DNA of 64,000 nucleotides, from NCBI RefSeq assembly GCF_900104385.1, contig NZ_FNJA01000004.1:372001-436000 (forward strand), read 5' to 3'. The notes beneath the pieces were generated by a model, which saw only the letters and a list, made by a program, of their open reading frames with translations, ran no database searches and had not been told where the DNA came from. The translations under genes were made by a program, and so were the position numbers. Every line of letters starts with the position of its first letter. Position 1 is the stretch's first letter. This document shows, one piece after another, positions 36,811-53,140 of this stretch. This stretch comes from Rhodoferax sp. OV413. GTDB taxonomy: Bacteria > Pseudomonadota > Gammaproteobacteria > Burkholderiales > Burkholderiaceae_C.

Positions 36811-39800
36811 ATGGCTACATCCGAGCTGCTGCACCTGGTTCCCCGCGCCCCCCAGGCCCTGCGCGAGATTCTGGACGGTGCCCGCGGCCCGGTACAGCCC
36901 CCGATCCGGTCGGAAATCTTCGGCCTGCAACGCTTTGCGCAACATGGCCGCAGCCTGGGTGAAACCCACCGTGCGGCCCGGCCCTCCATTGGCGCGGCCC
37001 GCTTCTTCCCGCATCTGCGCAGCAATATCGCCACGCTGCGCGAAGCCCACCGCTACATCGGCCTGCAGGCCGCCACAGGCTACGACGTCAGCCCGGCGGC
37101 CGAATGGCTGCTGGACAACTTCCACCTGATCGAAGCCCAGCTGGAAGAAATCCACGCCGGGCTGCCGCGCAGCTACTTCCGCGCCCTGCCGGTGCTGCAA
37201 GACGAGCCGCTGGCCGGCCTGCCGCGGGTCTACGGCATTGCCTGGGCCTTTGTGGCGCATACCGATGGCGCTTTTTCCGAGCCGCTGCTGGAACAGTTTC
37301 TCAGCGCCTACCAGGAGACCCGCGAGCTCAACCTGGCCGAACTTTGGGCCCTGCCCACCACCTTGCGCGTGCTGCTGGTGGAAAACCTGCGCCGCCTGGC
37401 CGAACGCGTGGCCACCAACAAGGCTGCCCGCGAGGTGGCCAATCTGTGCTGCGACAACCTGAGCACATACAGCCTGGAGTCGCTGGACCAGTTGCTGGCC
37501 CTGATGAACCAGCGCGGCGTGGGCCGCATGTTCCTGACCCGCATGGCGCTGCGCCTGCAGGACAGCCGCGTACCGGTGGATGCACGCTACACCGCCTGGA
37601 TGCAGGCCGCCCTGCCCGACTTTGCTGCGGCCCAAACCCAGCAGAATGCCGACCAGGCCGCAGACAACCTGAGCGTGAGCAATGCCGTGAAGTCGCTGCG
37701 CGCCATCGGCGACGCCGACTGGCCCGACATGGTGGCCCGTACCAGCGTGCTGATGCAGCACATGCTGACCTCCAAAGTTTTTGAAGCCGAACACCCGAGC
37801 ACCCGCGACCAGACCCTGCACGGCATCGAACGCCTGGCCCGGCGCAGCGGCCACAGCGAAGCCGCAGTGGCGCAAACCCTGCTCGGCCTGATGCATGCCG
37901 ATGCCGGCGACCAGGGCGTGGCCAGCCACTGGCTGCGCGGCCCGGGCCGGCCGGCCCTGGTCAATGCCCTGGGCCTGCATGAAAACCCCTTATTGCTGCT
38001 GTGGCGGGCCCGCAAGCGCCGCGCCGCGCTGCCGGTCTACCTGGGCGCACTGCTGTTCGGCAGCATAGGCTTGGTAGCCTGGATGCTGCCGCACCACACC
38101 GCGGGCGGGCCTATGCTCTGGCTGGCCGCCGCGCTGATGCTGTTCCCTGCCTCCGAGGCGGTGGTGGCGGTCATCAACCGGCTGATCAGCGAGTCGGTGC
38201 GCCCCCAGCATCTGCCCCGCCTGGGCTTGCTGGACGGCATACCTCCCGCACACCGGGTGCTGGTGGTGGTGCCGGCCATGCTGACCGACACCGCATCCAC
38301 CCAGGCGCTCGCGCACCGCCTGCATCTGCACCATATTGCCAACCCCGAGCCCTACGCCCAGTTCGCCGTGCTCAGCGACTGGAGCGATGCGGACAGCCAA
38401 CACACGCCCGAAGACGACGCCCTGCTGGCCACCGCCAGCGCGCAGATCGACGCGCTCAACCTGCGCTACCCCAGCGGCCCAGGGCAACCGCAGCGCTTCA
38501 TCATGCTGCACCGGGAGCGGACTTTCAGCGATACCGAGCAGCGCTGGATAGGCTGGGAGCGCAAACGCGGCAAGCTGGAGCAGCTGGTACAGGCCCTGGC
38601 CACGGGCGAGCACAGCGCCTTTCTAGACCTGGGAGAGAACTCGCGCATCGCCACGCCTACGCCCTACATCGTTACGCTGGACAGCGACACCCAGCTACCA
38701 CCCGGCCGCCTGCGCGAGCTGGTCGGCGTGGCCGCCCATCCGCACAACCAGCCGCAGCTGGACGCCAGCGGCCGCCGCGTAGTACGCGGCTACGGCATCC
38801 TGCAGCCGCATGTGGCGACCCCGCTGCCCGCGCGCAAAGAGGTCACGCTATACCACTGGCTGTTTGCCGGCCAGTGCGGCATCGACCCCTACAGCGCCGC
38901 CAGCTCCGAGGTCTACCAAGACTTGTTTTCCGAAGGCACCTTCACCGGCAAGGGCCTGCTGAATGTGCAGGCCATGCACGCCGTGCTGTCGGGCCAGCTG
39001 CCCGAAGGCCAGGTGCTGAGCCACGATCTGCTCGAAGGCTCGCTGGCGCGCTGCGCGGCGGTGACCGACATCACGGTGATCGAAGACGCGCCATTCCACG
39101 CCGATGTGGCGGCCTCCCGCGTACACCGCTGGACCCGCGGCGACTGGCAGCTGCTGCCCATCCTGCTGCGCCCCGGCCGCTATCCGCTGCGTGCCATCAA
39201 CCGCTGGAAGATGTTCGACAACCTGCGCCGCTCGTTGGTCGCGCCGATGTCGCTGGCCTTGCTGGTGTTCAGCCTGTGCAGCAGCGTTCTGTCGCCCTGG
39301 GCCGCGCTGGTGCTGGTGCTGGCTGCGTTCTCCGCCGGGCCGCTGATGGGCGCGGTGGCGGGCTTTTCGCCCAGCCGCGACGACCTGGCCAAGCGCCATT
39401 TCTACCGCCAGGCCGGCGCCGACATGGCGCGTACCCTGTGGGCCGGGCTCTGGCATCTGGCGCAGCTGCTGGTGCAGGCGCTGCTGGCAGTAGACGCGGT
39501 GACGCGGGCGCTGTACCGCATGCTGGTTAGCCACCGGCACCTGCTGCAATGGACCACGGCCGCCGCCGCCCAGGCCCAGGCCAAGACCCATCTGCCCGCC
39601 CTGCTGCGCGCGCACTGGAGCCTGCCGGTGGTGGGCTTGCTGCTGCTGGCGGCCTTGCTGTACCTGGGCACACCGCACCCGGTGCTGGCCAGCGTGCTGT
39701 GCCTGCTGTGGGCGGCATCGCCGGTCTGGACCTGGTGGGCCAGCCGTAGGCACCGGGCGCATGACGGCCCCATCGTACCGGCCGACAAGCTGGCGCTGCT

Positions 39801-42800
39801 GGAAGGGATTGCACGCGACACCTGGCGCTGGTTCGAGCGCTGCATCTCGCCGCAAGACAACTACCTGCCACCCGACAATTTGCAGGTTCAGCCCTACGAC
39901 ATCGTGGCGCACCGCACCTCGCCGACCAATATCGGCCTGTACCTGCTGAGCGTGGCCTGCGCCCGGCAATTCGGCTGGATCGGCACGCAAGACCTGCTGA
40001 CCCGGCTGGAGGCGACCTTGGCCACACTAGGCCGCATGCAGCGCCACCGCGGCCACTTCTACAACTGGTACGACACCGAGACCTGCGCGCCGCTGCTGCC
40101 GCTGTATGTCTCCACGGTGGACAGCGGCAATCTTTGCGGCCATCTGCTGGCGGCTGCCCAGGCCTGCCAGGAACTGGCTGCCGCGCCCTACGACACCACC
40201 GCAGCACGCCGCGCCATCCGCGCAGCCCGCGAGCGCCTGACCCCGTTGCTGGCGGCCCGCAGCAGCCTGCCCGCCGAACAGCGGGCCCAGCTGCGCTGGC
40301 GACTGGCCGATCTGCGCGCCACCCGCCGCTCGGCTGCGGCAGATACCCAAGCCCAGGCCGCGCTGATGACAGCCACCACGGCGCAGCGCCTGCTCAGCCT
40401 GGCGCAGGCCTTCGAAGCCCTGGCCTGGGAGGCCGACTTCCGCTTCCTGTACCACCGCAAGCGGCATCTGCTGCACATCGGCTACCGGGTGGCCGAGCAG
40501 CAGCTGGACGCGGGCTTCTACGATTTGCTGGCCTCCGAATCACGGCTGACCAGCCTGCTGGCAATTGCCAAGGGCGATGTGCCGGTGCGCCACTGGGCCT
40601 CGCTGGGCCGGCCGTTTTTTGCAACAGGCGCGGATGCCGGCCTGCGCTCCTGGTCGGGCTCGATGTTCGAATACCTGATGCCCACCCTGGTGCTGGTCGA
40701 GCCGCCGGGCAGCGTGCTGCAACAGGCCTGCCGTGCCGCGCTGCAGGAGCAGATGGACTACGCCAAGGCGCACAAGGTGCCCTGGGGGATTTCCGAATCG
40801 GCATACGCCGGGCAAGACCACACGCTGGCCTACCAGTACGCGCCGCAAGGCGTGCCGCGGCTGGCGCTGCGCCGCACGCCGGCCGACGAGCTGGTCATCG
40901 CCCCCTATGCTACCGGACTTGCAACGCAGGTATCACCTGCACTGGCAGCTACAAACTTTATAGCACTTGAAAAATTCAAGGCTTATGGGCGCTACGGCTT
41001 CATCGAGGCGCTGGACTTCACCCCCGCACGGCAGGCCGACGGCGACGCGTTCACGCTGGTAGAAACCTATATGGCGCACCACCAGGGCATGAGCCTGGTG
41101 GCGCTGGCCAATGTGCTGCTCGACGGCCCAGCGCAGCGCTGGGGCATGGCGAATGCGCACATCGAAGCCGTGGCCTCGTTGCTGCACGAGCGCGCGCCGC
41201 GCGAGGTGTCGGTGCTCAGCGCCCCGCCGGTGGGGCCACCGCCGCAGAGCATGCAACACCGGGCCCCCGGTTTGCTGCGCGACGTGGTGCCTGGCGGTAC
41301 CGCCGTGGAGCCCACGCATCTGCTGTCCAACGGGCGCTACCACGTGGCCTTGCGGGCCAACGGCGCCGGCTGGAGCCGCTGGGGCAATACCGGGATCACC
41401 CGCTGGCGCGACGACGCGCTGCGCGACGCCTACGGCAGCTTCTTCTACCTGCGCTGGGCCCAGCAGCCGCAGCTGGTGTCCACCACCCAGCACCCGGCAC
41501 CCGACCCGGCCGCCCACTACCACAGCACCTACCATGCCGACCGTGTCTGCTTCGACGCCGAATGGCCGTCGGTGCAGGTGCACACCACGGTCTGGGTCAG
41601 CCCCGAGGACGACATCGAGTTCCGCAAAGTGGAGCTGCGCAATATGGGCGACCAGACGCTGGAGATCGAGCTGATTTCGGCCTTTGAAGTGACCTTGTCC
41701 GACCCGCGGGCCGACGAATCCCACCCGGCCTTCGCCAACCTGTTTGTGCGTGCCACCTGGCAAGCCGAGGACCAGGCTTTGCTGTTCGAACGCAAGCCCC
41801 GCCTGCCTACCGAGCAAGGCATGCAGGCCGCGCACTTTCTGGTCGATACCGGCCCGCAGGTGCAAGGCGTGCGCATCCAAACCGACCGCCAGTTGTGGCT
41901 GGGCCGCAACCAGACCAGCAGCCAGCCGCTGGCATCCTTCGACGCCCTGCCCGAGCCCGGCACGCCGCTGGACACCGGCCTTGACCCGGTCTGCGCGATG
42001 GCGGTCAAGCTGCTGATTCCGCCGCAGGGCAAGGCCTGGCTGACCTTTGCTACCGCCGCATCGAACCACGACGCCACCCTGCAAGCCGTGATCGACAAAT
42101 ACCGCCAGCCCAGCCACGTCAAGCGGGCATCGCTGATGTCGGCCACGCTGACCGGCATCCGCCTGCGCACCGTCGGCCTGAACCCGGAAAACTTTGCCGC
42201 CATCCAGACGCTGACCAGCGCCCTGGTGCTGAGCCTGAGCCGCCCGCAGACCCAGACGGCAGCGGTCAGCGACAAACGTCTGCTGTGGCGCTTCGGCATC
42301 TCGGGCGACCGGCCTATCCTGCTGGTCAGCATCGGCGCCATGGAGGGCATGGGTCTGCTGCGGGCCTTGGCCCAGGGGTTGCGCCAATGGTCCTGGGGCG
42401 GCGTGGGCTGCGACTTGGTGGTGATCAATTCCGAGCCGGCCTCGTACCTGATGTCTGTGCAGCGCGAGGTGGGCATCCTGCGCGACCGCCATCTGTCCGA
42501 GCGCGGCCCAGAATCCGTGCCCACCACCATGTACCTGTTGCGGGTCGAAGAGCTGTCGCCCGACGAGCTCAGCACCCTGCATGCCCAGGCCCGGGTCCGC
42601 CTGCAGGCCGATGGGCGGCCGCTGCTGCACCATGTGCAGGCCTGGACTACGCTGCACGAGCAAGCCCAAGAGGCGCGGCAAGCCCTGTCCACCCAGGAAG
42701 TGCCACTGCTGCCCCGGCCCAGCGGCCCCGTGTCCGCACCTGCGGGCCTGTTCCAGCCGAACGGCGAATTCCGCTTCAACGTAAGTCCGCAGCTGCGCAC

Positions 42801-45162
42801 CACCCGGCCCTGGACCAATGTGCTGGCCAACCCCGGTTTTGGCGCGCACATCACCGAAGCCGGTGGCGGCTACAGCTGGGGGCGCAACAGCCGTATGAAC
42901 CAACTCACGGCCTGGTCCAACGACCCGGTGGGCGACACCCCGTCGGAATGGTTTCTGCTGCAGGACTGCAAGACGCTGGAGGTCTGGAGCGTGGCCCCGA
43001 ATGCCTGGGGCGATCCACTGGCCCAGTACCACGTGTCGCACTGCCAGGGCAGTACCAGCATCCGGCACCGGCGCGGCGATGTCGACGTCAGCGCCACCTG
43101 GTGCGTGGACGCCGACACCGCGGTCAAGCAGGTGCGGCTGTACATCATCAACCGCGGCCACCGCAATCTGCAGCTGCGCGTCATCGGCATGGCCGAATGG
43201 ATGATGGGCGCCAACCGCAGCGACCGCAGCAGCGTGCAGACCGCCGCACTGCAGCAGGACCGCTTCACCGCCCTGCTCTGCACCCAGCGCGAGCGCGCGG
43301 CAGGCTTTGGCGAAGGCACGGCTTTCCTGGCCCTGACCCAGCCCAGCGACGACTGGACCTGCGACCGCCGCGAGTGCTTTGACGCCCGCGGCCGGCTGGT
43401 GGTGCCCGACCATTTTGGCCACACCAGCGGTGCCGGCCTCGACCCCTGCGCGGCGATCTCCACGCAAATGACACTGGCCGCCGGCGACACCGCCGAGCGG
43501 GTGTTCCTGCTGGGCTATGCCGACAACCCGCTGCTGGCCGCGCGCCTGCTGGCCGATGCCACCGCCCTGCCCGCCAGCAAGCGGCTGGAAGCGGTGCACC
43601 AGCGCTGGACCCAGTTGCTGGGCGCTACCAGCGTGCAGACACCGGACCCGCTGTTCGACGCCATGGTCAACCACTGGCTGATGTACCAGACCGTGGCCTG
43701 CCGCCTGTGGGCCAAAGCCGGCTTCTACCAGGCCGGCGGCGCCACCGGCTTCCGCGACCAGCTGCAGGATTCGATGGCGCTGGCCTGGGCCGCACCCGAC
43801 ATGCTGCGCCAGCAAATCATGGTCTGCGCTTCGCGGCAGTTTGCCGAAGGCGATGTGCAGCACTGGTGGCACGCCCCTACCGGTGCCGGCGTGCGCACCC
43901 ATTTCTCGGACGATCTGCTGTGGTTGCCGCATGCCTGCGCGCACTATGTGCGCAGCACCGGCGACACCAGTTTGCTGGATGAACCCGTGCCCTTCCTGGA
44001 AGGCGCGGCCATTCCCGCCGGTGCAGAAGATGCGTACTACACGCCGGGGACCAGCGCCGAAATGGCCTCGGTCTACGAGCATGCAGCCCGCACCATAGAC
44101 CGCAGCCTGGCGGTCGGCGTACACGGCCTGCCATTGATGGGCAGCGGCGACTGGAACGACGGCATGAACCGCGTGGGGATCGAAGGGCGCGGCGAATCGG
44201 TGTGGCTGGGCTGGTTCATGTGCCAGCTGGTGGCCGACTTTGCACCGCTAGCCCAGGCCCGCGGCGACACCGCACGCGCCCAGGCCTGGGAGCAGGCCGC
44301 CGAGGGCTGGAAGCAGGCGCTGATGGGCCCGGCCTGGGACGGCCAGTGGTTCAAGCGTGCCTTCTTTGACGACGGTCAGGCGCTAGGCTCACATGCCAAT
44401 CCCGAGGCCAAGATCGACCTGATCGCCCAGGCCTGGGCGGTGCTATCCAAGACCGCACCGGTGGCCTCGCAGCGCATGGCGCTGGCGGCGGTAGAAGAAC
44501 ATTTGATCGACCCGGCGGCCGGGCTCATCAAGCTGCTGGACCCACCGCTGGCCCAGGCCGTGCCCAGCGCCGGCTACATCCAGGCCTACCCGCCGGGCGT
44601 GCGCGAAAACGGTGGCCAATACTCGCATGCCGGTGTCTGGGCGCTGATGGCGCAGGCCGAGTTTGCCAGGCAGCAGCCTGCATCCAGCGAAGCCCCAGAC
44701 ACCGCCTACCGCTACTTCACCTACCTGAATCCGGCGCACCGGGCCAACAACCCCGCGCAGGCGGCGGTCTACGGCATCGAACCCTATGTGATGGCCGGCG
44801 ATGTCTACACCCAGCCGCCCTATGTAGGACGCGGCGGCTGGAGCTGGTACACAGGCTCGGCGGCCTGGATGCACCGTGCGGCCATCGAGTCGATCTTTGG
44901 CCTGGAGCAAGGCGCCCACACGCTGAGCTTCACACCTTGCCTGCCATCGCATTGGCCGCAGGCCGAGCTGACGCTGCGCCGCGGCGAGCGCAGCATGCGA
45001 TTCATCCTGGTTCGCGGCAACGCAGAAGCGCCGCTGGCGCAGGGTGCGTCGGTCCAGGCCCAGCTGCTGCTGCCGGGCCAGCCCCTGGCCTGGTCGGAGC
45101 TGCCGGTGCAGAGCTGTTTCGTAATTCCCCTGAACGGCGCCTCCGATGAAAAAACCCACTGA
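36811..45162 (+). CDS. ndvB: Cyclic beta-1,2-glucan synthase
   Basis: The 2783-residue protein is the size of NdvB/Cgs enzymes. In order it has an N-terminal region; membrane helices near 410-450; the GT84 glycosyltransferase with the UDP-glucose-binding DSD of IVTLDSDTQLPPGRL (near residue 625) and HRWTRGDWQ; further membrane helices to about 985; a glucoamylase-like domain; and two C-terminal carbohydrate-binding/GH94 phosphorylase parts with MGSGDWNDGMNRVG (catalytic Asp near 2448). It makes cyclic osmoprotectant glucans of the periplasm from UDP-glucose and trims their length. The last 17 bp overlap the DUF1003 gene. No NdvA exporter gene is in this window. Residues near 1372-1388 coincide with a dispersed-repeat-like sequence. 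Confidence 0.94.
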   Translation: MATSELLHLVPRAPQALREILDGARGPVQPPIRSEIFGLQRFAQHGRSLGETHRAARPSIGAARFFPHLRSNIATLREAHRYIGLQAATGYDVSPAAEWLLDNFHLIEAQLEEIHAGLPRSYFRALPVLQDEPLAGLPRVYGIAWAFVAHTDGAFSEPLLEQFLSAYQETRELNLAELWALPTTLRVLLVENLRRLAERVATNKAAREVANLCCDNLSTYSLESLDQLLALMNQRGVGRMFLTRMALRLQDSRVPVDARYTAWMQAALPDFAAAQTQQNADQAADNLSVSNAVKSLRAIGDADWPDMVARTSVLMQHMLTSKVFEAEHPSTRDQTLHGIERLARRSGHSEAAVAQTLLGLMHADAGDQGVASHWLRGPGRPALVNALGLHENPLLLLWRARKRRAALPVYLGALLFGSIGLVAWMLPHHTAGGPMLWLAAALMLFPASEAVVAVINRLISESVRPQHLPRLGLLDGIPPAHRVLVVVPAMLTDTASTQALAHRLHLHHIANPEPYAQFAVLSDWSDADSQHTPEDDALLATASAQIDALNLRYPSGPGQPQRFIMLHRERTFSDTEQRWIGWERKRGKLEQLVQALATGEHSAFLDLGENSRIATPTPYIVTLDSDTQLPPGRLRELVGVAAHPHNQPQLDASGRRVVRGYGILQPHVATPLPARKEVTLYHWLFAGQCGIDPYSAASSEVYQDLFSEGTFTGKGLLNVQAMHAVLSGQLPEGQVLSHDLLEGSLARCAAVTDITVIEDAPFHADVAASRVHRWTRGDWQLLPILLRPGRYPLRAINRWKMFDNLRRSLVAPMSLALLVFSLCSSVLSPWAALVLVLAAFSAGPLMGAVAGFSPSRDDLAKRHFYRQAGADMARTLWAGLWHLAQLLVQALLAVDAVTRALYRMLVSHRHLLQWTTAAAAQAQAKTHLPALLRAHWSLPVVGLLLLAALLYLGTPHPVLASVLCLLWAASPVWTWWASRRHRAHDGPIVPADKLALLEGIARDTWRWFERCISPQDNYLPPDNLQVQPYDIVAHRTSPTNIGLYLLSVACARQFGWIGTQDLLTRLEATLATLGRMQRHRGHFYNWYDTETCAPLLPLYVSTVDSGNLCGHLLAAAQACQELAAAPYDTTAARRAIRAARERLTPLLAARSSLPAEQRAQLRWRLADLRATRRSAAADTQAQAALMTATTAQRLLSLAQAFEALAWEADFRFLYHRKRHLLHIGYRVAEQQLDAGFYDLLASESRLTSLLAIAKGDVPVRHWASLGRPFFATGADAGLRSWSGSMFEYLMPTLVLVEPPGSVLQQACRAALQEQMDYAKAHKVPWGISESAYAGQDHTLAYQYAPQGVPRLALRRTPADELVIAPYATGLATQVSPALAATNFIALEKFKAYGRYGFIEALDFTPARQADGDAFTLVETYMAHHQGMSLVALANVLLDGPAQRWGMANAHIEAVASLLHERAPREVSVLSAPPVGPPPQSMQHRAPGLLRDVVPGGTAVEPTHLLSNGRYHVALRANGAGWSRWGNTGITRWRDDALRDAYGSFFYLRWAQQPQLVSTTQHPAPDPAAHYHSTYHADRVCFDAEWPSVQVHTTVWVSPEDDIEFRKVELRNMGDQTLEIELISAFEVTLSDPRADESHPAFANLFVRATWQAEDQALLFERKPRLPTEQGMQAAHFLVDTGPQVQGVRIQTDRQLWLGRNQTSSQPLASFDALPEPGTPLDTGLDPVCAMAVKLLIPPQGKAWLTFATAASNHDATLQAVIDKYRQPSHVKRASLMSATLTGIRLRTVGLNPENFAAIQTLTSALVLSLSRPQTQTAAVSDKRLLWRFGISGDRPILLVSIGAMEGMGLLRALAQGLRQWSWGGVGCDLVVINSEPASYLMSVQREVGILRDRHLSERGPESVPTTMYLLRVEELSPDELSTLHAQARVRLQADGRPLLHHVQAWTTLHEQAQEARQALSTQEVPLLPRPSGPVSAPAGLFQPNGEFRFNVSPQLRTTRPWTNVLANPGFGAHITEAGGGYSWGRNSRMNQLTAWSNDPVGDTPSEWFLLQDCKTLEVWSVAPNAWGDPLAQYHVSHCQGSTSIRHRRGDVDVSATWCVDADTAVKQVRLYIINRGHRNLQLRVIGMAEWMMGANRSDRSSVQTAALQQDRFTALLCTQRERAAGFGEGTAFLALTQPSDDWTCDRRECFDARGRLVVPDHFGHTSGAGLDPCAAISTQMTLAAGDTAERVFLLGYADNPLLAARLLADATALPASKRLEAVHQRWTQLLGATSVQTPDPLFDAMVNHWLMYQTVACRLWAKAGFYQAGGATGFRDQLQDSMALAWAAPDMLRQQIMVCASRQFAEGDVQHWWHAPTGAGVRTHFSDDLLWLPHACAHYVRSTGDTSLLDEPVPFLEGAAIPAGAEDAYYTPGTSAEMASVYEHAARTIDRSLAVGVHGLPLMGSGDWNDGMNRVGIEGRGESVWLGWFMCQLVADFAPLAQARGDTARAQAWEQAAEGWKQALMGPAWDGQWFKRAFFDDGQALGSHANPEAKIDLIAQAWAVLSKTAPVASQRMALAAVEEHLIDPAAGLIKLLDPPLAQAVPSAGYIQAYPPGVRENGGQYSHAGVWALMAQAEFARQQPASSEAPDTAYRYFTYLNPAHRANNPAQAAVYGIEPYVMAGDVYTQPPYVGRGGWSWYTGSAAWMHRAAIESIFGLEQGAHTLSFTPCLPSHWPQAELTLRRGERSMRFILVRGNAEAPLAQGASVQAQLLLPGQPLAWSELPVQSCFVIPLNGASDEKTH
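40921..40970. repeat. Repeat-family-like segment inside the glucan synthase coding sequence
   Basis: This AT-richer stretch contains CGCAGGTATCACCTGCACTGGCAGCTA, 22 of 27 positions identical to the copy in the catalase-CheB/CheR spacer. GCAGGT and ACCTGC form a small palindrome within it. It reads in frame as TQVSPALAATNFIALEKF, in a part where relatives usually read along the lines of ALMVDPQAALANLQRLA, so the length seems unchanged. Confidence 0.5.
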
Positions 45163-47144: not shown

Positions 47145-48089
47145 TCAACGTGCGATGCGCGCAGCCTGGCGGATTGCATCCAGACTCACCCGGCCCTGCG
47201 GTGCGCCTTGGGCATCGACCACCTGTGCGTCGCCCGTGCCCGCATCCAGCATGGCCGACAGCGCATCGCGCAGCGGCGTTGCGGCCAGCAGCTGGGGGGC
47301 GTCCACGGCCGCCAGTCCGTCTTGGGTGTAGGCGCCCACCGTCAACAACGATAGACGCTTCAACGAGCGGTCGCCGCCAACAAAAGCCTGCACAAAGGCA
47401 TCGGCGGGTTGCGCCAGGATGCGTTCGGGCGTGTCGTACTGCACTACCTTGCCGGCGCGCAAGATGGCAATGCGCGTACCCATGCGTATGGCTTCATCGA
47501 TGTCGTGGGTCACAAACACAATGGTCTTGCCCAGCTCGCGCAAGATGCGCAAGAACTCGTCTTGTAGGCTCGCGCGGGTGATCGGATCGATGGCACCAAA
47601 CGGCTCGTCCATCAGCATCACCGGCGGGTCAGCCGCCAGTGCGCGGGCCACGCCAACGCGCTGCTTCTGCCCACCCGACAACTCGCGCGGATAGCGATTA
47701 CGGTACTGGCCGGGTTCCATGTGCACCAAGGCCAGCAGTTCGTCTACCCGCTTGGCAATCCGCGCCGCATCCCATCCCAGCATCCTGGGCACTGTGGCCA
47801 CGTTCTCGCCAATGGTCATGTGCGGGAACAGGCCGACTTGCTGGATCACATAGCCGATAGAGCGGCGCAGCTCCACCGCGTCGATCTGCATCACGTCGCG
47901 GCCACCGACTTCGATGCGGCCGCTGTCGGGCTCGACCATGCGGTTGATCATGCGCATGGTGGTGGTCTTGCCGCAGCCCGAAGGGCCGATCAGCACACAG
48001 ATCTCACCGGTCTGCACGGTCAGGGACAAGCGGTCTACCGCATACTGGCCGCTGCTGAATTGCTTGGTAAGGCCTTCAAGTGTGATCAT
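47145..48089 (-). CDS. Quaternary-amine ABC transporter ATP-binding protein (OpuCA-like)
   Basis: From the ATG at 48089 the protein has 314 residues. ABC motifs are intact: Walker A GPSGCGKTT, signature LSGGQKQRVGVARAL, Walker B VMLMDEPFGAID, and the switch histidine in FVTHDIDEA. A C-terminal region of about 60 residues resembles a CBS module (LRDALSAMLDAG, AQGAPQGRV), as in osmoregulated betaine transporters. It overlaps the upstream permease by 4 bp and is the last gene of the five-gene operon that contains the MIO-less lyase. It powers uptake of the betaine-like ligand. Confidence 0.94.
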   Translation of the reverse strand: MITLEGLTKQFSSGQYAVDRLSLTVQTGEICVLIGPSGCGKTTTMRMINRMVEPDSGRIEVGGRDVMQIDAVELRRSIGYVIQQVGLFPHMTIGENVATVPRMLGWDAARIAKRVDELLALVHMEPGQYRNRYPRELSGGQKQRVGVARALAADPPVMLMDEPFGAIDPITRASLQDEFLRILRELGKTIVFVTHDIDEAIRMGTRIAILRAGKVVQYDTPERILAQPADAFVQAFVGGDRSLKRLSLLTVGAYTQDGLAAVDAPQLLAATPLRDALSAMLDAGTGDAQVVDAQGAPQGRVSLDAIRQAARIAR

Positions 48090-48730
48090 GGTGCGCGAAG
48101 CCCTTGGGGAGTCATGCGGCGCTGCAAGGCGCCAAAAAGAAAGTCGCTGGCCAGCGCCAGCAAGGCTACCGGCACGGCACCCACCAGCAGCTGCGGCACC
48201 GCCATCATGGCAACGCCGGCGGTAATGAAGTCGCCCAGCCCGCCGCCGCCGATGAAAGCCGCCAGCACCGCGCCCGAGATCACCTGCACCGCGCCCGTGC
48301 GCAGGCCGGCAAAGATTACCGGCAGCGCCATCGGCAGCTCTACCTGCCACAGCAAGGCGGAGCGCGTCATGCCCATGCCGATGGCGGCGTCCACCACATC
48401 CGCATCCACGCCGCGCATGGCGGTGATGGTGTGCGTGACGATGGGCGGCAAGGCGATCAGGGTCAGGGCAAACAAGGCCGGCGCAAAGCCGGTGCCCAGC
48501 AGCGGCATGACCAGCGCCAGCACCGCCAGCGACGGCAGGGTGCGCGCCACATTGGCGATGTTCACCACCGCCAGCGACCAGTTGCTGCGCCGCGCCACGG
48601 CAATCCCGGCGGGGATGCTGATGGCGGCCGCCAGAAACAGGGCCGAAGCCGACAGCGTGATATGCACCCACAGCGCCCGGGAGAACTGGGCGGGGTGGGC
48701 AAGCAGGTAGTTCCAGGTATCGGCAAGCAT
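48086..48730 (-). CDS. ABC transporter permease (OpuCB/D-like), second
   Basis: The start chosen at 48730 has an AGGA ribosome site six bases upstream; the ATG two codons earlier is too close to that site. The protein has 214 residues with about five membrane helices and the ABC-permease loop GVDADVVDAAIGMGMTRSALLWQVELP. It resembles OpuCD/YehY-type permeases of quaternary-amine transporters. It begins 16 bp after the first permease stop and overlaps the ATPase gene. The two permeases are homologous and would form a heterodimer. Confidence 0.92.
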   Translation of the reverse strand: MLADTWNYLLAHPAQFSRALWVHITLSASALFLAAAISIPAGIAVARRSNWSLAVVNIANVARTLPSLAVLALVMPLLGTGFAPALFALTLIALPPIVTHTITAMRGVDADVVDAAIGMGMTRSALLWQVELPMALPVIFAGLRTGAVQVISGAVLAAFIGGGGLGDFITAGVAMMAVPQLLVGAVPVALLALASDFLFGALQRRMTPQGLRAP

Positions 48731-48746
48731 GGGCATTCCTAGGGCA

Positions 48747-49370
48747 TCAGGCCGCGTGGCCGGCTTTGAGGCGGCGCTCGACCCAGGCCAGCAGCAGGTC
48801 GACGGCCACCGCCAGCGCGCAGGCGGTGAGCGCACCGGCCCAAATCTTGGCCGGGTGGTCGCTGGCGATGCCGTTGAAGATCAGCGTGCCCAAGCCGCCG
48901 GCGTTGACATAGGCCGCCACCACGGTGACGCTGATCACCGTCACGGCCGATACGCGCAGACCGGCCACGATCAGCGGCAAGGCCAGCGGCAGCTCGATCT
49001 GGCGCAGGATCTGGCGCGGGGCCATGCCCATGCCGCGTGCCGCGTCTATCACCTCGGCAGGCACTTCGCGGATGCCGGTGGCCACGCTGCGGATCAGAAT
49101 CATCAGCGAAAACGCCACCATGGTAATGATGGCGTTGCTGCGGCCCAGCCCCACCAACGGAATCAAAAAGGCCAGAAAAGCCAGGGTGGGAATGGTGTAC
49201 AGAAACCCCGACACCGTCATCACCACCCCATACAACCGGGCACGCCGGGCCGCCAGCACGCCGATGGCCAGCGACAAGGCAAAGGCGATCACCAGGGCGG
49301 TGAAAGAGATCGCAATATGCTCCCACAGGGCATACAGCACATCGGGCCAGTTACGCAGAAACCATTTCAT
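48747..49370 (-). CDS. ABC transporter permease (OpuCB/D-like), first
   Basis: The 207-residue protein has five to six membrane helices (WPDVLYALWEHIAISFTALVI, then VSGFLYTIPTLAFLAFLIPL) and the coupling loop EVPAEVIDAARGMGMAPRQILRQIELP. The YTIPTLA and AYVNAGGLGTLIF segments are typical of the glycine betaine/choline/carnitine family. It starts 7 bp after the lyase-like gene stop. With the second permease, the ATPase and the binding protein it completes a type I importer. Confidence 0.93.
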   Translation of the reverse strand: MKWFLRNWPDVLYALWEHIAISFTALVIAFALSLAIGVLAARRARLYGVVMTVSGFLYTIPTLAFLAFLIPLVGLGRSNAIITMVAFSLMILIRSVATGIREVPAEVIDAARGMGMAPRQILRQIELPLALPLIVAGLRVSAVTVISVTVVAAYVNAGGLGTLIFNGIASDHPAKIWAGALTACALAVAVDLLLAWVERRLKAGHAA

Positions 49371-49377
49371 GGCAATG

Positions 49378-50901
49378 TCACGCGGCCTTGGCTAGGGATA
49401 AGTTGAATAGGTTGAAATGGCCCGCGGCCACCGCCTCATAAACGCTGTCGATGTCCGGACCCAATGGCCGGTCTTCGTCCAGCACCGGCACGATGGCCCG
49501 CAGCCGGGTATAGGCCGCCAATGCGCCCTCGCCCATCTCGGCCGTGGCTGTGCCGCGCAGGTCTACCGCCTGGGCTGCGACGAGCAGCTCGATGGCGATC
49601 AGGTAGTGCACGCGCTGCAGCAGCTCGCCCAGCTTATCCACCACGGTCCAGGCCATGCAGGCATGGTCTTCCAGGCCCTCGGAGATGGGGATGAAGTCCA
49701 GCGAAGCCGGGTTGGCGCGCAGGCGGATCTCGGACCACAGCGCGGTCAGCGTCTTCTGCACCGCGGCAAAGCCGGAATGCGCAGGGCCATGCCGGGTCAG
49801 CTGCAATGGCAGATCGGTCAGCGCGGGCGACATGAAGCGCAGGCAGCGCGCCACCGCCATGCTCGAGGTCTGCGCCAGCGCCAGCGCGCAGGCATCGACC
49901 GCCAGCGCCAGGGCCGGCAAATGGAAGTTGCCGTTGGACAGCATCAGGCCCTCGTCGGCCAGCACCAGCGGGCTGTCGGCCGCACTGTTCAATTCGACTT
50001 CGACCTGGGCCCGGGCCGACTGCACCATGCCCAGCGCCGCACCATGCACCTGGGCCACGACCCGCATCGACACCGGGTCCTGCACCCGGCGGGCCGCCCC
50101 CGGCAGCCACAGCGCGCTGCCCTGCAGCAGACTGCGCAACTGGCTCGCCACCTCGATCTGGCCTGTGGCTGGCCGGGCCGCCACGGCCGTGGCGTGCAGC
50201 GGTGACAGATTGGCCCGAAAGCCTTCAAAACCCAGCGCAATCGCCGCCAGCCAGCTGTGCAGCGCCGCACTCACATCGTGCAGCACCAGGGCTGCCCGCG
50301 CCGTGGTGGCGGCATTCGCGCTGATTAACGCCAGGCCGTCCTTGGCGCCCAGTACCGCCGGCTGCAGGCCGGCGCGTTGCAAGGCTATCGTGCCCGGCAG
50401 CACATCGCCCTGACATTCGGCCTGGCCCTCGCCGAACAAGGGCAAGGCCAGGTGCGACAGCTGGGGTAGATCGGCCACGCTGATGGACCCCATACGGGGC
50501 ACCTGCGGATGGACCTGGTGGTTGAGCAAGTCGATACAGGCGTCCAGCACCGCTGGCGATATGCCCGAGCCACCCCGCGCCAGGCCGGCAATCCGGGCGA
50601 ACTGCATGGCGCGCACGGTGGCAGTATCCCAGACCGGCCCCACGCCGACCGCCCGGGCCCGCACGGCACGGCGCTGGTAGGCTTCTAGATCACCATCGGC
50701 CAGCACCGCGCCGGTGTTCGCGCCCAGGGCCGAGTTCAGGCCGTAGACCGGCTGGCCCGATGCGGCCAGGCGCTCGACCACCTGGCGCGCGGCCACCACC
50801 CGGGCCCGCGCGCCCGCGGCCAGTGCCACCGGCTCGCGTCCGCGCGCGACCCGTACCAGGTCATCGATGCCCAGCCACTGTTCGCCAACCTCGCATGCCA
50901 T
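49378..50901 (-). CDS. HAL/PAL-fold lyase lacking the MIO triad; candidate ergothionase-type trimethylammonia-lyase
   Basis: The 507-residue protein has the histidine ammonia-lyase length and fold (VYGLNSALGANTG, GEGQAECQG, QDPVSMR, NGNFHLP, EGLEDHACM). The loop that normally reads GSVGASGDLAPL reads GSISVADLPQL here, so the Ala-Ser-Gly triad that cyclises into MIO is absent. Further differences from HutH are R83 for His, S194 for Asn, and V277 for Tyr. Y53, Q274, R280 and E411 are kept, and K383 appears where HutH has a hydrophobic residue. MIO is needed to expel ammonia. Ergothionase, a HAL-superfamily enzyme without MIO, expels trimethylamine from ergothioneine. Its place between the binding protein and permeases of a betaine-type transporter supports a trimethylammonium substrate. 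Function is inferred. Confidence 0.75.
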   Translation of the reverse strand: MACEVGEQWLGIDDLVRVARGREPVALAAGARARVVAARQVVERLAASGQPVYGLNSALGANTGAVLADGDLEAYQRRAVRARAVGVGPVWDTATVRAMQFARIAGLARGGSGISPAVLDACIDLLNHQVHPQVPRMGSISVADLPQLSHLALPLFGEGQAECQGDVLPGTIALQRAGLQPAVLGAKDGLALISANAATTARAALVLHDVSAALHSWLAAIALGFEGFRANLSPLHATAVAARPATGQIEVASQLRSLLQGSALWLPGAARRVQDPVSMRVVAQVHGAALGMVQSARAQVEVELNSAADSPLVLADEGLMLSNGNFHLPALALAVDACALALAQTSSMAVARCLRFMSPALTDLPLQLTRHGPAHSGFAAVQKTLTALWSEIRLRANPASLDFIPISEGLEDHACMAWTVVDKLGELLQRVHYLIAIELLVAAQAVDLRGTATAEMGEGALAAYTRLRAIVPVLDEDRPLGPDIDSVYEAVAAGHFNLFNLSLAKAA

Positions 50902-51970: not shown

Positions 51971-52984
51971 CTAGCGGAAGCGCAGGCGCTGGCCCAGGCC
52001 CAGGCGCTGGGCTTTTTCCAGCATGAAGGCGCCCAGTGCAATGTCGGACAGCGACAGCCCGCGGTGCCAGAACAGATTGGTCTCCTCGTCGCTTTCGCGG
52101 CCCGGCTTCAGCCCGGCGACGATCTGGCCGAGTTCTGCATGCAGAGTCTGCTCCGACAACTTGCCCGCGTCTACATGGGCGCGCAGCGCGCCCAGCGGCC
52201 CGGCCTTGGCCTGGCCCCAGTCGTCCATCACCATCTTGTCCATGATGTCGGTCAGCGACAGCTCGACCGCGCTCATGGTGCCGTAGGGAATCACACAAGC
52301 GCCCGGCTTGATCCACTCGGTCTTCAGCAGGGGCTCGGGCTTTTCCAGGCGCGAGGCCTCGACCACGATGTCGGCGCCGCGCACGCAGGATTCCCAGTCG
52401 GTGGTGACGGTGATCTTCTTGCCCAGGTCTTTTTCCAGCTTGGCAGCAAACGCGTTGCGGCTCTCAGGCCGGCGCGAATGCACGCGGATCTCGTCGAAGT
52501 CGTAGATCGAATCCAGCAGCCGCACATTCCAGTACGAGGTGCCACGCGCGCCGATGTGGCCCAGGATCTTCGAGTTCTTGCGCGCCAGGTGCTTGGCGCC
52601 CAGGGCGGTGATGGCGCCGGTGCGCATATCGGTCAGGTCCGAGGCATCGATGATGGCGATAGGCGAGCCGTTCTTGGGGTCGAACAAATTCAGCACCGCC
52701 AGCTCGGACGGCAGGCCGATCTCGTAGTTGCGGTAGAAGTCGCCCACCACCTTCACCCCGGCAAGGCCCATGGGGCGGATGTAGCCGCGCAACACATTGA
52801 AGTGGCCGGGGTAATCCTTCTCGGGCACCAGATGCATGCGCGGCTCGATGGTGGTTTGCTGGTTGCCCTGGGCATGCAAGGCCTGCTCCACGGCGGCCAG
52901 GATTTCCGCATCTGTCAGGGCCAGGGCCTGCACGTCGGGATGGTTCAGATAGGTCAGGTAAATTTCGGCGGTGCTATCGGACAT
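51971..52984 (-). CDS. Ornithine cyclodeaminase/mu-crystallin family protein
   Basis: From the ATG at 52984 the protein has 337 residues. It has the family N-terminal dimerisation part (LTDAEILAAVEQAL, then PRMHLVPE and GVKVVGDFY) and the NAD(P)-binding Rossmann part with LGHIGARGTSYWNVR, VHSRRPESR and ADIVVEASR. Members act as ornithine cyclodeaminase, alanine dehydrogenase or cyclic-imine reductases. It is upstream of the transporter-lyase operon on the same strand, 180 bp away, and has a similar TGTA..ACA operator-like site. It may handle an amino-acid or imine product of the same pathway, but that is inference. Confidence 0.9.
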   Translation of the reverse strand: MSDSTAEIYLTYLNHPDVQALALTDAEILAAVEQALHAQGNQQTTIEPRMHLVPEKDYPGHFNVLRGYIRPMGLAGVKVVGDFYRNYEIGLPSELAVLNLFDPKNGSPIAIIDASDLTDMRTGAITALGAKHLARKNSKILGHIGARGTSYWNVRLLDSIYDFDEIRVHSRRPESRNAFAAKLEKDLGKKITVTTDWESCVRGADIVVEASRLEKPEPLLKTEWIKPGACVIPYGTMSAVELSLTDIMDKMVMDDWGQAKAGPLGALRAHVDAGKLSEQTLHAELGQIVAGLKPGRESDEETNLFWHRGLSLSDIALGAFMLEKAQRLGLGQRLRFR

Positions 52985-53051
52985 GGGGAGGGGCTTTCCA
53001 GATCGGGCGGTGGGTGCTGGGCCGTGCACGGACGGGCCGCGCAAATCATAG

Positions 53052-53063
53052 CTGTATAGACAA
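53052..53063 (-). promoter_or_regulatory. Second TGTA..ACA operator-like site
   Basis: CTGTATAGACAA matches the palindrome at 51883-51894 at 10 of 12 positions (TGTATAGACA against TGTATATACA). It lies 68 bp before the cyclodeaminase start codon. The shared site suggests one regulator for both transcripts. Confidence 0.45.
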
Positions 53064-53140
53064 CCAGAATCAACGCCGCTGGCCCGGCGTAGGGCCGCCC
53101 CCTAAAATCCCGGCTCTTCCACCTGCCTTACTGAGCCCCC

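Follow-up and report, generated by a model that had tools for sequence, protein, structure and literature searches.

The window, the whole 64,000-nucleotide stretch analysed from Rhodoferax sp. OV413, carries on its minus strand six genes in the order OCD-family reductase, binding protein, lyase, permease 1, permease 2 and ATPase (Table 1). From the binding protein on, the genes are spaced by 7-10 bases or overlap, and the OCD gene sits 180 bases further upstream. The preliminary description had placed the lyase in a betaine transporter operon, with an OpuC-type transporter encoded on both sides of it. The layout is as claimed, with the binding protein upstream of the lyase and the two permeases and the ATPase downstream; the operon is conserved and its binding protein is of the quaternary-ammonium type with cage residues, but the sixth gene, that of the OCD-family reductase, had been missed. 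Elsewhere in the window, an ORF of 2783 aa (36811-45162) resembles by eye a cyclic beta-glucan synthase of the NdvB type.

Table 1. Features of the lyase operon, in window coordinates
Feature	Position	Strand	Basis or remark
OCD/mu-crystallin-family reductase, proposed desulfonating reductase	51971..52984	-	PF02423, 182 bits; ATG at 52984; co-occurrence
OpuAC/ProX-type quaternary-ammonium substrate-binding protein, 293 aa	50909..51790	-	PF04069, 224 bits; cage residues
MIO-less HAL-fold lyase, R83/K383/E411 type	49378..50901	-	507 aa; PF00221, 452 bits; alignment; predicted fold
GSISVADLPQL, codons 138-148, replacing MIO-forming GSVGASGDLAPL	50458..50490	-	alignment
R83 codon (HutH and ergothionase 6s7j: His)	50653..50655	-	alignment
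K383 codon (ergothionase 6s7j: same; HutH: Val)	49753..49755	-	alignment
E411 codon (same in HutH and ergothionase)	49669..49671	-	alignment
ABC permease 1	48747..49370	-	PF00528
ABC permease 2	48086..48736	-	PF00528; start picked by eye from orthologues
ProV/OpuCA-type ATPase	47145..48089	-	TIGR01186, 331.8 bits (cut-off 326.6)
Weak promoter-like match upstream of the OCD gene	53045..53073	-	9 of 12; no better than chance

The lyase reading frame has no internal stop. Aligned to HutH of P. putida, it has GSISVA-DLPQL, one residue shorter, where HutH has its MIO segment GSVGASGDLAPL, and the corresponding segment of the Treponema denticola ergothionase (6s7j), SSIGEG-DITTL, is likewise shortened by one residue. 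The alignment and the predicted HAL fold agree with what had been read from the gene beforehand: the MIO triad is absent, R83, S194 and V277 stand where HutH has His, Asn and Tyr, and Y53, Q274, R280 and E411 are present. K383 had also been called new, which it is not, as 6s7j has Lys there (HutH has Val); nor are S194 and an aliphatic residue 277 new, 6s7j having S and L. Y53, S194, Q274, R280, K383 and E411 are common to the lyase and 6s7j, and R83 is the residue that separates them, being His in both 6s7j and HutH. The lyase is similar to HutH (1b8f, 1gkm) in fold and in much of the pocket, whereas HutH has ASG, H83, N195, Y280 and Val at the 383 position. It also falls short of the curated HutH cut-offs, that of TIGR01225 included (383 versus 539 bits and 397 versus 524). 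A HutH with an altered MIO was ruled out by the missing ASG and the presence of K383. The marks of an ergothionase that we found in the lyase are a predicted HAL fold without ASG, together with Lys 383, Glu 411 and Tyr 53, positions that we take to be among the published essential ergothionase residues. Elimination of trimethylamine by an ergothionase that lacks MIO was reportedly described by Maurer in 2019.

The best PDB sequence match of the lyase is 6s7j (289.5 bits, against 250.5 bits for HutH), and its predicted model (mean pLDDT 76, pTM 0.83; confidence is low across loops 139-145, 367-376 and 400-411 of the active site) also matches 6s7j first, at TM 0.89, and then HutH, at TM 0.85. 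As to the possibility raised earlier, that the closest homologues would be MIO-dependent lyases, the nearest solved structure by both sequence and predicted fold is the MIO-free ergothionase. The T. denticola enzyme (6s7j, 6s7q) shares the HAL fold, the lack of MIO and the shorter loop with the lyase, while the two differ at position 83, fall in separate clades and are 32-33% identical over the structural alignment.

ASG is absent, and R83, K383 and E411 are kept, in all 13 orthologues that cover these sites (L005-L017, 58-79% identity); a fourteenth, L018, is truncated before residue 83 and was left out of the site counts. In five comparisons, dN was 0.14-0.30 and dS 0.9-1.8, which indicates purifying selection. 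The earlier argument against simple decay therefore holds, given an intact reading frame, the same change in 13/13 orthologues and this selection, and the same 13 orthologues dispose of a sequencing error hiding ASG.

The main lyase tree was built from 53 rows with trait columns removed and is unrooted; L006, L007, L011, L020, L023, L030, L031, L049, L059, L061, L066 and L134 were left out of it as close copies or long branches. The window lyase falls in an R83 clade of 31 rows (support 93/90, not starred). 6s7j groups with four H83 relatives, L026, L027, L028 and L147 (99/94), apart from the R83 clade, and the lyase lies outside this clade of the characterised ergothionase in the 53-row tree. 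Lyases linked to thiourocanate hydratase form a group of their own (100/100), also apart from the R83 clade. The R83 clade is joined to HutH (99/96) and not to ergothionase, and because the tree is unrooted, a single origin of all MIO-less K383 lyases hinges on the root. A quick first tree of 59 rows gave the same R83, ergothionase and HutH groups. The ergothionase relative on Sinorhizobium meliloti pSymA (L028:7866-9506) has Ala where the others have K383. Most likely the gene encodes a trimethylamine lyase that works without MIO and belongs to a distinct R83 clade. The earlier suggestion of a lyase acting on a trimethylammonium amino acid thus survives in its general form, as the best reading of the gene, but not in its choice of ergothioneine as the best substrate.

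When 38 R83 rows, close copies among them, were set against 15 MIO rows and 8 MIO-less rows with H83, only positions 59, 83 and 111 proved particular to the R83 rows, position 83 by construction. On the unrooted tree residue 83 changes twice, the second time back to His in L132-L136. Two OCD-linked lyases have H83 instead of R83, one on the Polaromonas JS666 plasmid (L026) and one in Paraburkholderia (L147), so R83 is dispensable in the OCD setting. We take Ser82-His83 of HutH to be the counterpart of the superfamily's selectivity pair, an assignment that disagrees with the Phe mentioned next. In the accessible part of PMC8773403, His89 bonds the 4-hydroxyl of the substrate and HAL enzymes are given Phe at the His89 position; the accessible part of PMC9002059 ties substrate choice in the HAL superfamily to residues 137 and 138 and a His89Phe switch in the Rhodobacter tyrosine lyase. 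The H83 lyases L132-L136 form a subclade within the R83 clade with no OCD neighbour in the fetched stretches; their genomes also carry an R83 lyase and OCD, and the L132 gene lies, by eye, beside an aminotransferase and an aldehyde dehydrogenase.

The binding protein gene stands directly upstream of the lyase in 11 of 14 related loci, and the nearest solved structures to its product, after engineered sensors, are ProX and EgtUC. Its cage was mapped onto these proteins with an AfProX numbering that is partly our assumption. K33, Y83, T86, N126, Y128, R166, Y207 and Y231 were matched to the carboxylate and cage positions of ProX/EgtU by hand from the accessible text of PMC9732360. In an alignment of 26 rows, where the window appears twice, 25 or 26 rows keep each of seven of these residues; Y207 is kept in 18, with Ala in six and Phe in two. 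The same text ties a Gly/Phe pair of EgtU (G244 and F293, the latter a Tyr-to-Phe switch) to ergothioneine affinity. These two marks are absent from the 26 rows (the window again counted twice), all of which have F35 and Y83. By the G244/F293 marks, the protein looks like a betaine binder and not like an EgtU. The transporter resembles EgtU/OpuC-type systems in its OpuAC-type binding protein with an aromatic cage and in its permease and ATPase families; unlike in EgtU, the binding protein and permeases are separate genes. Sulfonated ergothioneine is not among the EgtU ligands tried, as far as the accessible text of PMC9732360 goes.

The OCD-family protein matched 14 curated families, none of them over the cut-off, including OCD/cyclodeaminase, and its best PDB relative is alanine dehydrogenase (1vll, 1omo). 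It retains a Lys and an Arg aligned with those of alanine dehydrogenase, and a GTMSA segment stands at what we take to be the position of the catalytic Asp, the identities of the catalytic residues being likewise our assumption. To relate this gene to the lyase, two even samples of 299 genomes (family) and 398 genomes (phylum) were searched with the window OCD protein by itself (E 1e-60) and with the lyase (E 1e-85), and the best 3 to 7 first-look candidates were scored per genome. OCD was found in 8/299 and 11/398 genomes, at identities of at least 66%, and the lyase in 6/299 and 9/398; one family-sample genome, G290, had passed the lyase threshold with a canonical HutH and was dropped, which leaves five. 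All genomes with an R83-clade lyase also have OCD (9/9 in the phylum sample, 5/5 in the family sample). Fisher values for this association overstate independence because the Rhodoferax genome is in both samples and six of the nine phylum-sample genomes belong to one genus, and the family-sample value still includes G290 among the lyase genomes.

Of 16 other OCD genomes, ten hold a MIO-less K383-type lyase within the stretch fetched around OCD, and two (G205, G261) have the lyase on another short contig. The remaining four (G020, G255, G158, G306) showed no such lyase at E 1e-40, a threshold that could miss distant lyases, which suggests that OCD has some use without the lyase; in three of them it lies next to urocanase in a hut operon. 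Across 39 OCD loci, a collection that mixes lyase-anchored and OCD-anchored finds, 30 have a K383-type MIO-less lyase (28 with R83, two with H83) and nine have none, L050 and L055 among the latter being on contigs too short to tell. Plasmid loci were chosen for diversity, with seven taken from 83 OCD records and 11 places from lyase searches that gave 855 and 857 records. Compared with the plasmid clusters L019, L020, L022 and L023 of Rhizobium, the window shows 70-72% identity for OCD and 45-47% for the lyase, OCD being the better conserved. Holders of the system include Polaromonas and relatives, Rhizobium, Azospirillum, Martelella and Streptomyces; the pairing reaches another phylum on a Streptomyces chartreusis plasmid (L145), where the binding protein, permease and ATPase genes are divergent from those of OCD and an R83 lyase. 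Separately, a Rhodococcus qingshengii plasmid (L144:8599-9795) has an OCD gene that seems to be truncated and matches residues 84-347 of the window protein at 86% identity. HutH, an SsuABC-like transporter and an IS21 helper gene lie nearby, and this copy is likely a recent transfer across phyla.

Neighbouring genes in relatives connect the system to histidine breakdown. A urocanase gene adjoins OCD in seven loci (L009, L049, L051, L052, L054, L141 and L147), and the only one tested with profiles, that of L009, is a canonical HutU (910 bits) below both thiourocanate-hydratase cut-offs. HutC adjoins the lyase in Rhizobium. The Rhodoferax genome has a single urocanase, which scores below the thiourocanate-hydratase cut-off and lies in a hut region on contig C22 (L065), with matches to HutU, HutI, HutG, HutF and HutH.

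Other neighbours are of a sulfur type. Genes of YeiH type occur in 12 of 64 annotated loci (L006, L007, L010, L011, L019, L020, L023, L026, L030, L031, L049 and L063), and another, in L027, is cut by the end of the stretch. The three proteins tested match PF03601, that of L006 lying under the NCBIfam YeiH cut-off, and sulfate export is their annotation. The one YeiH-type gene of the Rhodoferax genome is on another contig, away from the operon. In two rhizobial clusters (L029, L146) a pair of flavin monooxygenases adjoins OCD and the lyase; both members of the L029 pair match the NtaA/DmoA family, the score of one exceeding the cut-off and that of the other falling just short. A PhnD-like gene is present in 23 of the 39 OCD loci, often right after OCD, and is absent from the window operon; the Rhodoferax genome has only two 30% matches to it, elsewhere. 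Examples lie at L009:4436-5257, L012:6133-6978, L014:1459-2274 and L019:10479-11297, with PF12974 in those tested, and by eye the N-termini from L009, L012 and L014 have no obvious signal peptide, so the protein may be cytoplasmic.

Thiourocanate hydratase marks a different set of loci. No protein of the Rhodoferax genome exceeds the cut-off for this enzyme (best 666.8 bits versus 930), and five of the 398 phylum-sample genomes have one that does. Four of these five stretches contain an H83 lyase (L127-L130, in NF058530 neighbourhoods) and L131 has none; by BLAST to the reference set, none of the five contains OCD or an OpuC-type binding protein. The four lyases resemble the window enzyme in being MIO-less with K383 and E411 and differ from it in H83 and in these neighbours. 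In genome G544 the OCD/lyase and thiourocanate-hydratase systems occur together at separate places.

The reading that we prefer, and to which we give about an even chance, is that the operon serves to take up and break down a histidine betaine with a modified C2, ergothioneine sulfonate being the likeliest. The pairing of the R83 clade with OCD, which elsewhere adjoins urocanase, points to a C2-changed or desulfurised histidine betaine, and a sulfonate at C2 would account for R83, for an enzyme that transfers hydride, for entry at the urocanase step and for the sulfur-type neighbours in some relatives. Ergothioneine sulfonate would enter through the OpuC-type ABC transporter with its ProX-type binding protein. 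The lyase would then remove trimethylamine by acid/base elimination through Y53, K383, E411 and R280, residues common to ergothionase, to yield urocanate-2-sulfonate, with R83 pairing with the anionic sulfonate. MIO would not be needed because trimethylammonium is already a good leaving group. On chemical reasoning, the OCD-family enzyme would pass a hydride from NAD(P)H to C2 and expel sulfite to give urocanate, which urocanase and the other Hut enzymes, encoded elsewhere in the genome, would convert to glutamate, and in some relatives a YeiH-type exporter may remove the sulfite. The Hut enzymes for urocanate, which we would expect of an ergothioneine sulfonate route, are present in the Rhodoferax genome. 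Both ergothioneine sulfonate and hercynine occur in spent mushroom substrate, according to the accessible part of PMC12785439.

Several observations do not fit this sulfonate model. Neither the H83 lyases that accompany OCD in L026 and L147 nor the OCD genes of hut operons that lack such a lyase are accounted for, and the PhnD-like gene is given no role. YeiH genes, present in a minority of loci and missing from around the window operon, speak against the model, as do the joining of the R83 clade to HutH on the unrooted tree and the H83 subclade L132-L136, which has no OCD neighbour. In the literature on ergothioneine with OCD, sulfonate or urocanate/sulfite, as far as it was within reach (most subscription papers were not), we found no description of this gene set. 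In 2022, Yan, Huang and Zhang reportedly reconstituted an ergothioneine sulfonate catabolic pathway (ACS Catal.); judged by title alone, that pathway shares the proposed substrate, and the window operon may be a member of it. A broader proposal, which we hold tentatively and think somewhat more apt to fail than to hold, is that R83 lyases are a separate kind of trimethylamine lyase for C2-oxidised histidine betaines, coupled to cleavage of an aromatic carbon-sulfur bond by hydride on an OCD/mu-crystallin fold and feeding the histidine pathway. Reductive desulfonation would, to our knowledge, be new to that fold, unless the 2022 paper has it.

Were the substrate hercynine (trimethylhistidine), which the preliminary description also named, the lyase would yield urocanate directly for the Hut pathway. 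Such a product fits the canonical urocanase and the position in hut operons in relatives, and PMC12785439, in its accessible part, places hercynine in spent mushroom substrate. Nevertheless, we consider this unlikely, as it leaves unexplained the tight link to OCD and the YeiH and flavin-monooxygenase neighbours of some relatives, and an unmodified imidazole should not need the change from His to Arg at 83.

Ergothioneine itself, the substrate favoured in the preliminary description, would make the lyase a strict ergothionase that forms thiourocanate and trimethylamine. The nearest solved structure is an ergothionase by sequence and predicted fold, apart from position 83 the listed residues are identical or similar, EgtU is a member of the binding protein's family, and the OCD-linked lyases of L026 and L147 have H83 as ergothionase does. 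We nonetheless find this reading distinctly unlikely: the Rhodoferax genome lacks a thiourocanate hydratase over the cut-off, the lyases linked to this hydratase have H83 and group apart, the Gly and Phe of EgtU are replaced by F35 and Y83 in the binding protein, and we know of no step for the OCD-family reductase in the route from ergothioneine to thiourocanate.

A third alternative, an improbable one, is another aromatic or non-histidine betaine, such as that of tryptophan or tyrosine, with a product activated by CoA. Matches to CoA-transferase, SDR and MaoC-type hydratase in the Rhizobium-type loci L019, L020, L023, L030, L031 and L063 are in keeping with it, but Hut genes, HutC and urocanase among them, keep appearing in the clusters. 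In the stretches fetched from Polaromonas, Azospirillum (L021), Sinorhizobium B11 (L029) and Streptomyces (L145), BLAST to the reference set turned up neither a CoA-transferase nor a MaoC match. The lost MIO tripeptide might suggest a HAL paralogue that no longer catalyses a reaction and instead serves in structure or regulation, but this is very improbable given the conservation of K383, E411, Y53 and R280 in orthologues, the purifying selection and an ergothionase fold that works without MIO (PMC13405746, accessible part). For ergothionase, the same part of PMC13405746 states that it lacks MIO and lists Agrobacterium radiobacter among its sources, for which it cites Yan, Huang and Zhang 2022.

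If the sulfonate reading is right, several bacterial groups would have in common a route devoted to an oxidised fungal antioxidant, the residue at position 83 would help to separate the lyases, and an OCD-fold enzyme would gain a role in breaking carbon-sulfur bonds. Relatives are annotated as "histidine ammonia-lyase" or hutH, "glycine betaine binding protein" and "ornithine cyclodeaminase", and for this cluster those names are probably mistaken. Finally, the hut region of the Rhodoferax genome on contig C22 holds a second, different MIO-less HutH paralogue (L065:7157-8662), with GSVGYLTH in place of GSVGASGDL and Tyr at 383; the GSVGYLTH motif was also seen in L064, and a similar one, GSVGYIVH, in L139.
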